Source: Sulfitobacter sp. W027
GTDB lineage: Bacteria > Pseudomonadota > Alphaproteobacteria > Rhodobacterales > Rhodobacteraceae
Length of the DNA: 64,000 nt
Assembly: GCF_025143985.1 (NCBI RefSeq)
Contig: NZ_CP083564.1
Location: 1,241,501 to 1,305,500 of the forward strand
Direction of reading: 5' to 3'
The notes beneath the pieces were generated by a model. It had not been told where the DNA came from, did not search any database, and was given only the letters and a program-made list of their open reading frames with translations. The stretch's first letter is position 1. Each line of letters opens with the position of its first letter. This document shows, piece by piece, positions 23,453-23,992 of this stretch. The position numbers and the translations under genes are program-made.

Positions 23453-23528
23453 GGGTCGTTAGCTCAGTTGGTAGAGCGCTTCGTTTACACCGAAGATGTC
23501 GGGAGTTCGAGCCTCTCACGACCCACCA
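23453..23528 (+). tRNA. tRNA-Val(TAC)
   Basis: This 76-base cloverleaf has acceptor arms GGGTCGT/ACGACCC and anticodon stem CTTCG/CGAAG. The loop TTTACAC gives anticodon TAC. The T-arm is GGGAG-TTCGAGC-CTCTC and CCA is encoded. Its 3' end is the template for the repeat array that follows directly. Confidence 0.96.
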
Positions 23529-23992
23529 CCTTCCCCTAGGTTTCGTTCGTTTCATAGCGTTTTGCCGCAGCGGTGAGCCCGACCGACGCTCGTCCGCTTT
23601 GCGGCCAATCTGGGTCGGGAGTTCGAGCCTCTCACGACCCACCACCTTCCCCTAGGTTTCGTTCGTTTCATAGCGTTTTGCCGGAGCGGTGAGCCCGACC
23701 GACGCTCGTCCGCTTTGCGGCCAATCTGGGTCGGGAGTTCGAGCCTCTCACGACCCACCACCTTCCCCTAGGTTTCGTTCGTTTCATAGCGTTTTGCCGC
23801 AGGGGTGAGCCCGATCGACGCTCGTCCGCTTTGCGGCCAATCTGGGTCGGGAGTTCGAGCCTCTCACGACCCACCACCTTCCCCTAGGTTTCGTTCGTTT
23901 CATAGCGTTTTGCCGCAGGGGTGAGCCCGACCGACGCTCGTCCGCTTTACGGCCAATCTGGGTCGGGAGTTCGAGCCTCTCACGACCCACCT
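23529..23992. repeat. Four tandem 116-bp repeats, each ending in an internally deleted tRNA-Val remnant
   Basis: Four copies of a 116-base unit run head to tail directly after tRNA-Val(TAC). Each has an 83-base spacer (starts CCTTCCCCTAGGTTTCG) and a 33-base tRNA remnant at 23612-23644, 23728-23760, 23844-23876 and 23960-23992. Only a few single-base differences separate the copies. The remnants match the tRNA with 43 bases removed between its two GTCG tetranucleotides (tRNA positions 3-6 and 46-49), so D-arm, anticodon arm and variable loop are gone. A shortened acceptor stem, the T-arm and ACCA remain. The last copy ends CCT followed by TTT. Spacers are equal, so this is not CRISPR. Confidence 0.93.

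Follow-up and report, generated by a model that had tools for sequence, protein, structure and literature searches.

A tandem array behind tRNA-Val(TAC) in Sulfitobacter sp. W027: a candidate RtT-like hairpin element that copies gene tails

The tandem array that directly follows the tRNA-Val(TAC) gene of Sulfitobacter sp. W027 is, with a probability that we set at roughly 60%, a tandemly amplified, RtT-like hairpin element that copies the tail of its target gene and acts at the DNA level. This reading draws on the architecture of the unit, its recurrence at six kinds of target, the matching of arms to target, the covariation of the core stem, the homogenized arrays and the likeness of the layout to repeats in E. 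coli. The window referred to below is the whole stretch of DNA analysed, 64,000 nucleotides of contig NZ_CP083564.1.

Each unit consists of a copied gene tail, a spacer of roughly 45 nt, a left arm, a core hairpin that is conserved, and a right arm. The right arm doubles as the beginning of the following tail copy, and the left arm is the reverse complement of that beginning. The element is placed behind particular tRNA genes or the 3' end of a superoxide dismutase (SOD) gene, and the host gene stays intact because its own tail is duplicated along with the element. In the proposed mechanism, the imperfect hairpin would form in single-stranded or cruciform DNA and move rarely between targets, taking its outer arms from each new target; the movement, the copying of arms and a DNA-level agent behind them are inferred from the present loci. 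Arrays would then grow or shrink by slippage or unequal exchange between tail copies.

The array and its surroundings

The target gene, an intact tRNA-Val(TAC) (23453..23528, + strand; ARAGORN, and 68 bits with the Rfam tRNA model), ends in the stretch that is copied, from the variable-loop GTC through CCA (23498..23528, +). Tandem Repeats Finder places the array at 23498..23991 (+), with a 116-bp unit repeated 4.3 times (period 116, 98% matches, 0% indels, score 953). In unit 1, a spacer of 49 nt runs from the CCA to the left arm (23529..23577, +); its sequence is lineage-specific and near-identical among the units of the array. It is followed by the hairpin (23578..23619, no strand assigned), composed of left arm CCCGACC (23578-23584), core (23585-23612) and right arm GGTCGGG (23613-23619) and matched by our covariance model R1 at 23575-23621 with 70.8 bits, and then by tail copy 1 (23614..23644, +), which with the preceding GG is the first of four tRNA minihelices that the original prediction had described (23612-23644). 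The hairpins of units 2, 3 and 4, likewise unstranded, lie at 23694..23735 (R1 match 23691-23737, 70.8 bits), 23810..23851 (23807-23853, 65.0 bits, with one left-arm mismatch) and 23926..23967 (23923-23969, 64.0 bits), and their tail copies at 23730..23760, 23846..23876 and 23962..23991 (all +), the last with its final base altered and followed by TTTTCCCC.

The descriptive part of the original prediction holds. The 116-bp unit stands in tandem directly behind the tRNA gene, the 33-mer GGGTCGGGAGTTCGAGCCTCTCACGACCCACCA, which includes the tRNA tail, occurs four times (starts at 23612, 23728, 23844 and 23960), the only change in it is at the end of copy 4 (..CCACCT), and the spacers between tail copies differ by few substitutions. 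Searched against its own genome, the 116-bp unit gave five matches, all inside the array, and a second site of its hairpin was found behind tRNA-Ala(GGC) (contig position 3170032). No family except tRNA was detected by an Rfam scan of 23400-24060 at E<=5, and the array has no credible ORF, the minus-strand ORFs resembling antisense-tRNA artefacts.

Two tandem histidine-phosphatase genes (PF00300; 22264-23411) lie between tRNA-Val(CAC) and tRNA-Val(TAC). A tRNA-Gly called by ARAGORN inside them (22818-22909, - strand) is not returned by Rfam at its gathering threshold and is probably false. A decayed hairpin suspected by eye behind tRNA-Val(CAC), at 22126, scored 1 bit with the model and was discarded. 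Downstream of the array, two near-identical tRNA-Asp(GTC) genes, 227 bp apart, occupy 24294-24597, with a terminator-like hairpin and T-run between them (24380-24410).

Targets, arms and the junction

Among the named records sharing the 33-mer were two Sulfitobacter, an uncultured Tateyamaria and a Paracoccaceae MAG. When up to three mismatches were allowed, junction plus tail occurred in 6 of 62 genomes of the genus, and the 32-mer with up to one mismatch in 5 of 394 genomes of a family sample. In most of these genomes the tail copy is preceded by a sequence like GCCCGACCGACGC..[hairpin]..CTGGGTCGGG, whose inner stem varies but stays paired; the hairpin is shortened in G062 and not shown in G229. 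R1, although built solely from Val(TAC) loci and matching 6 of the 394 genomes, also detected the hairpin behind tRNA-Ala(GGC) in the genome under study, behind tRNA-Met(CAT) and tRNA-Val(CAC), and at a protein gene whose Pfam and NCBIfam domains identify it as Fe/Mn SOD, with scores below the NCBIfam cut-offs. A wider model, R2, used at E<=0.01, matched 28 of the 62 genomes of the genus and 10 of the 394 of the family sample; of the ten family matches, L160 and L163 at least, which lie in coding-looking sequence without tail copies, are probably due to chance, as is probably a weak match in a tRNA-Ile/Ala region (L201). The targets are tRNA-Val(TAC), Val(CAC), Ala(GGC), Met(CAT), Thr(GGT) and the end of the SOD gene, and one conserved core (ACGCGCG..CACTCTG) recurs behind the different tRNAs and the SOD gene in different genera. 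If decayed copies are counted, the tail is found duplicated at 50 of the 53 tRNA loci. At E<=0.5 the W027 genome contains five hairpin matches, located at two tRNAs.

A hairpin with a tRNA-tail copy was also observed on a 172-kb contig (contig 6) of G015, with no tRNA within the 35 kb examined (L153 1873-1941), and a transposase-like ORF was noticed by eye near it. An IUPAC pattern of the core matched five IMG/VR contigs with no tRNA in the stretches examined and arms that were unmatched by eye, and a viral origin was set aside.

The arms follow the target. In the examples examined, the right arm corresponds to the beginning of the target gene's tail, and its reverse complement makes up the left arm, giving the pairs CCCGACC/GGTCGGG at Val(TAC), CCTGACC/GGTCAGG at Val(CAC) and GCTGACT/AGTCAGC at Ala. 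At the SOD gene the arm extends to up to twelve bases, mostly coding, as in CTCCCAGTCACC vs GGTGAACTGGGAG, with one bulged base. At 43 of 49 loci, the three bases following GTC in the upstream tRNA find their reverse complement in the left-arm triplet, compared with a mean of 11.7 and a maximum of 23 in 10,000 permutations, which do not give a strict probability for loci related by descent. This count excludes 14 of 63 rows, ten lacking an upstream tRNA and four whose left arm has no GAC. No match is seen at two Ala(GGC) loci, one Ala(TGC) locus and three Met loci; at the two Met loci with the tail GTCCCTGG, the left arm resembles by eye that of the Ala type. The left arm starts 40-53 nt behind the tRNA at 47 of 53 loci and 98-141 nt behind it at the other six.

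The original prediction had traced the array to a second tRNA-Val that lost 43 internal bases between two GTCG tetranucleotides and was then duplicated in tandem. The arithmetic is correct, so the 33-mer can be read in this way, and it can fold as an acceptor-T minihelix (-14.5 kcal/mol, RNA fold). Nevertheless, the GGGTC in front of the tail copy is part of the right arm of a conserved imperfect hairpin of about 46 nt, which also occurs behind the SOD gene and behind other tRNAs, where the acceptor strand is not restored. We scored the junction at 47 of the 53 tRNA loci; in the other six, the start of the tail could not be recognised within the hairpin. The 5' end of the tRNA is represented there by a longest run of five bases at most Val(TAC) loci, four at Val(CAC), one or three at Ala, one at Met and two to four at Thr, and an identical CTGGGTC junction is found at Val(CAC) and at three Ala loci whose acceptor strand differs. 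Because CTGGGTC recurs at Val(CAC) and Ala without restoring the acceptor strand, the GGGTC at Val(TAC) seems to be hairpin arm that agrees with the acceptor by chance. The junction at other targets is not tRNA-derived, which contradicts an internal deletion; we reject that origin and leave it practically no probability. The interpretation in the original prediction is partly supported: random decay of the remnants, which it had named as a sign against itself, appears at part of the 34 single-hairpin tRNA loci, where the copy is decayed at 11 (at least four differences) and missing at three, while 20 copies carry no more than two differences.

Hairpin structure, DNA or RNA, and array history

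For covariation, the structure was set by hand on a MAFFT alignment of 14 chosen sequences covering five kinds of target. In this alignment 97.6% of cells are paired, double changes occur at 8 of 12 pairs (25 cells), and the covariation score of 0.489 was reached by none of 500 shuffles, with values of at most 0.08 when the partner strand was slid. R2 run on 63 chosen sources gave a match in 62 of them, and 104 matches overall, of which 84 were distinct; this larger alignment was fitted to the model, and its pair counts therefore lean towards it, the 14-sequence test serving as the control. The matches retain a C bulge, a C.A mismatch (in 75 of 81) and a G.G mismatch (in 54 of 81), whereas their stem columns exchange CG, GC and TA.

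A covarying stem also fits a functional structured RNA, in which transcripts would read through from the tRNA, CCA processing would free RtT-like RNAs of about 110 nt, and selection would keep the hairpin and tail copy. The nearly constant distance of the hairpin from the CCA (40-53 nt at those 47 loci) and the conserved core could equally reflect selection on RNA, and RttR of E. coli is annotated as an ncRNA whose terminus is the CCA of a tail copy. Moreover, a terminator scan listed no terminator-like site from the tRNA to the end of the array, which bears out an earlier claim for the interval between tRNA and array. The TTTT after the last tail copy, proposed to act with it as a terminator, does not pass the same scan, and the nearest + strand site 3' of the array is the one at 24380-24410, behind tRNA-Asp. 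Read-through RNA from the tRNA into the units is predicted to be likely, and the RttR annotation suggests, by analogy, products of around 110 nt rather than free 33-nt minihelices.

Selection for an RNA is nonetheless, in our estimate, rather unlikely to explain the array. Conservation of the hairpin as RNA should yield more G-T cells than A-C cells, but the two are about equal in the 15 paired columns (21 vs 17, summed over the pair table), so that no RNA-strand bias is seen. The covarying outer helix between left and right arm appears in the RNA minimum-energy fold of just 13 of 49 full units, and forcing it in the window unit costs 10 kcal/mol (from -42 to -32). The even G-T and A-C counts and the rare use of the outer helix in RNA folds favour a role at the DNA level. 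Patchy presence (28 of 62 genomes of the genus) and decayed or missing single copies at 14 of 34 loci also speak against a selected RNA.

The largest arrays contain up to five full units, for example behind tRNA-Ala in G013 with steps of 111-112 bp. Spacers of 30-60 nt have a median identity of 0.93 within arrays (60 pairs); for 223 pairs taken from different loci of one tRNA type it is 0.55, close to the shuffled control of 0.48. Arrays are thus homogenized, spacers being so alike within arrays and near the control between loci. What follows the final tail copy varies: at some loci it is flank that differs from the one behind the tRNA, at others a duplicated stretch of flank, left arm and half a core. 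Plain site-specific insertion is insufficient, because some of the duplications include native-looking flank.

Homogenized arrays and the duplication of flank together with the tail, at Val(CAC) of G154 and elsewhere, as well as E. coli lysQ and lysV, fit a history of mutation without any mobility, in which slippage between short repeats duplicates tail and flank and template switching at quasi-palindromes pairs the arms. This leaves the presence of one core (ACGCGCG..CACTCTG) at various tRNAs and SOD in several genera unexplained, and we regard mutation alone as quite unlikely. Over 34 loci chosen from genomes with at least two targets, cores at different targets of the same genome have a similarity of 0.785, compared with 0.739 for label shuffles (sd 0.012; 0 of 5000), a shuffle that also breaks relatedness between genera; examples are Val and Met in G134 and Val(TAC) and Val(CAC) in G154. 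Most of this excess comes from genera outside that of the window. Within the genus, same-target cores resemble each other most (0.87), with a small same-genome excess (0.79 vs 0.77), which points to mostly vertical descent there. The overall pattern is compatible with rare exchange or movement and subsequent vertical descent.

Direct repeats of a tRNA 3' end are a classic mark of integration, and tail copies might accordingly be attR-like repeats left by the integrases of genomic islands that use tRNA tails. Besides the repeats themselves, two genomes are compatible with this origin, G073 and G007, in which segments of about 1.2 kb lie between tail arrays (L100 884-2540; L086), sitting on truncated copies of tRNA-Val in G073 and to some extent in G007; a Morganella phage record also shares about 32 bp with the Val tail. 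On the other side, units of 107-116 bp are too short to code for an integrase, no integrase gene lies between the tail repeats in the window's 116-bp units, which lack a credible ORF, and neither the complementarity of arm and tail nor the covarying core is given a role. In addition, the hairpin had no match in the plasmid and phage searches: a plasmid search with the Ala hairpin and a phage search with the Val unit returned short matches alone, the latter apparently to the tRNA tail. We consider remnants of att sites highly improbable.

Relation to RtT and other repeat systems

The tyrT repeats of 178 bp in E. coli are said to have been described by Egan and Landy in 1978 and by Rossi et al. 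in 1981. At tyrTV we found a 178-bp unit in 3.1 copies, with tail copy AATCCTTCCCCCACCACCA and a left arm, GGGGAAGGAT, that is the reverse complement of ATCCTTCCCC; the RttR annotation (1287066-1287236) stops exactly at the CCA of a tail copy. Searching nine chosen tRNA-gene stretches for exact suffixes of at least 13 bases, we detected tail copies in four, behind tRNA-Tyr, tRNA-Lys and tRNA-Arg. Measured against 2000 shuffles that preserve base composition only, left arms match at 10 of 10 positions for Tyr (reached by 0 and 2 shuffles) and at 9 of 10 for four Lys sites (1 to 14 shuffles), the match is weak for Arg (136 to 868), and none is present at lysQ and lysV (936 and 864). Rfam assigns RtT to four Tyr and six Lys copies and to none of the Arg ones. 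The weak Arg result and the absence at lysQ and lysV count against our preferred reading, as do the 6 of 49 unmatched arms, the small same-genome core signal within the genus, the native-looking flank in some duplications and the result for Y1_Tnp given below.

The window array shares with RtT (RF00391) the succession of tRNA, spacer, left arm complementary to the tail, structured core and CCA-ended tail copy, repeated in tandem behind a tRNA gene, and the complementarity of left arm and tail copy is that of the E. coli Tyr sites and four Lys sites. Its core, in contrast, is unrelated to that of RtT: the RF00391 model had no match in the W027 genome, while the E. coli control was matched, and none in ten carrier loci at E<=0.1, and R2 had none in the four E. 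coli stretches with tail copies. The tail copy of RtT spans 18-19 nt from the T stem, compared with about 31 nt from the variable-loop GTC here, and, unlike RtT, the family of the window element also uses the SOD gene. On sequence criteria, the element is RtT-like in its working and not a member of RF00391.

REP/BIME sequences are small imperfect DNA palindromes with conserved unpaired bases and tandem growth. The window element resembles these RAYT-associated repeats in all three respects, but REP/BIME copies are many and dispersed between genes, whereas the element is low-copy, with the five matches at two tRNAs in its own genome, and its credible matches lie behind tRNAs or the SOD gene. 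Y1_Tnp (PF01797) was absent from the W027 genome and not enriched among carriers (5 of 28, compared with 13 of 34 other genomes), and a Y1 transposase was rejected as partner. In integrons, attC is a single-stranded DNA hairpin with a bulged base and an outer arm that the first bases of the following unit complete; its boxes are GTTRRRY and RYYYAAC. The window hairpin shares the hairpin type, the completion of the arm and the bulge; by eye, however, GGTCGGG, AGTCAGC, GGTCAGG and other arms miss these boxes and follow the target, and we saw no integron cassettes. The Val(TAC) tail copy can also fold like a tRNA minihelix (the acceptor-T half), a likeness lost at other targets, where the acceptor strand is not restored.

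In the accessible parts of earlier papers, rtT-like elements are placed in BIMEs (PMC2965389), RtT is found near tRNA genes in Pasteurellaceae (PMC4986893) and covariation is noted in RtT (PMC7657543). The available portions of PMC2267715 and PMC2884548 do not mention the element, and our literature search, mostly of papers outside subscription, retrieved no apparent description of it.

The long unexplained tRNA-tail repeats of E. coli gain an independent counterpart, and the data suggest a common rule, not met in the literature searched, by which the arms match the copied tail. The rule makes the origin of such repeats testable, and 'tRNA remnants' behind tRNAs need not be decayed genes. The element may represent a novel class of very small DNAs that are mobile or amplify themselves. 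More tentatively, and with some doubt, RtT and the window element, their cores being unrelated, could represent an alpha- and gamma-proteobacterial class of tiny hairpins that travel in single-stranded form, select the tail of a tRNA or other gene by means of a programmable arm and leave a new copy of this tail behind them, which keeps the host gene alive. Further hairpin-like sequences of a similar type (..TTTTGCAAAGCAAAAG..GTCGCGCGGCAGTCGC..), seen by eye behind the CCA of several tRNAs and tail copies (L116, L192, L180, L120, L125, L016, L061 and L064), possibly constitute another repeat family.
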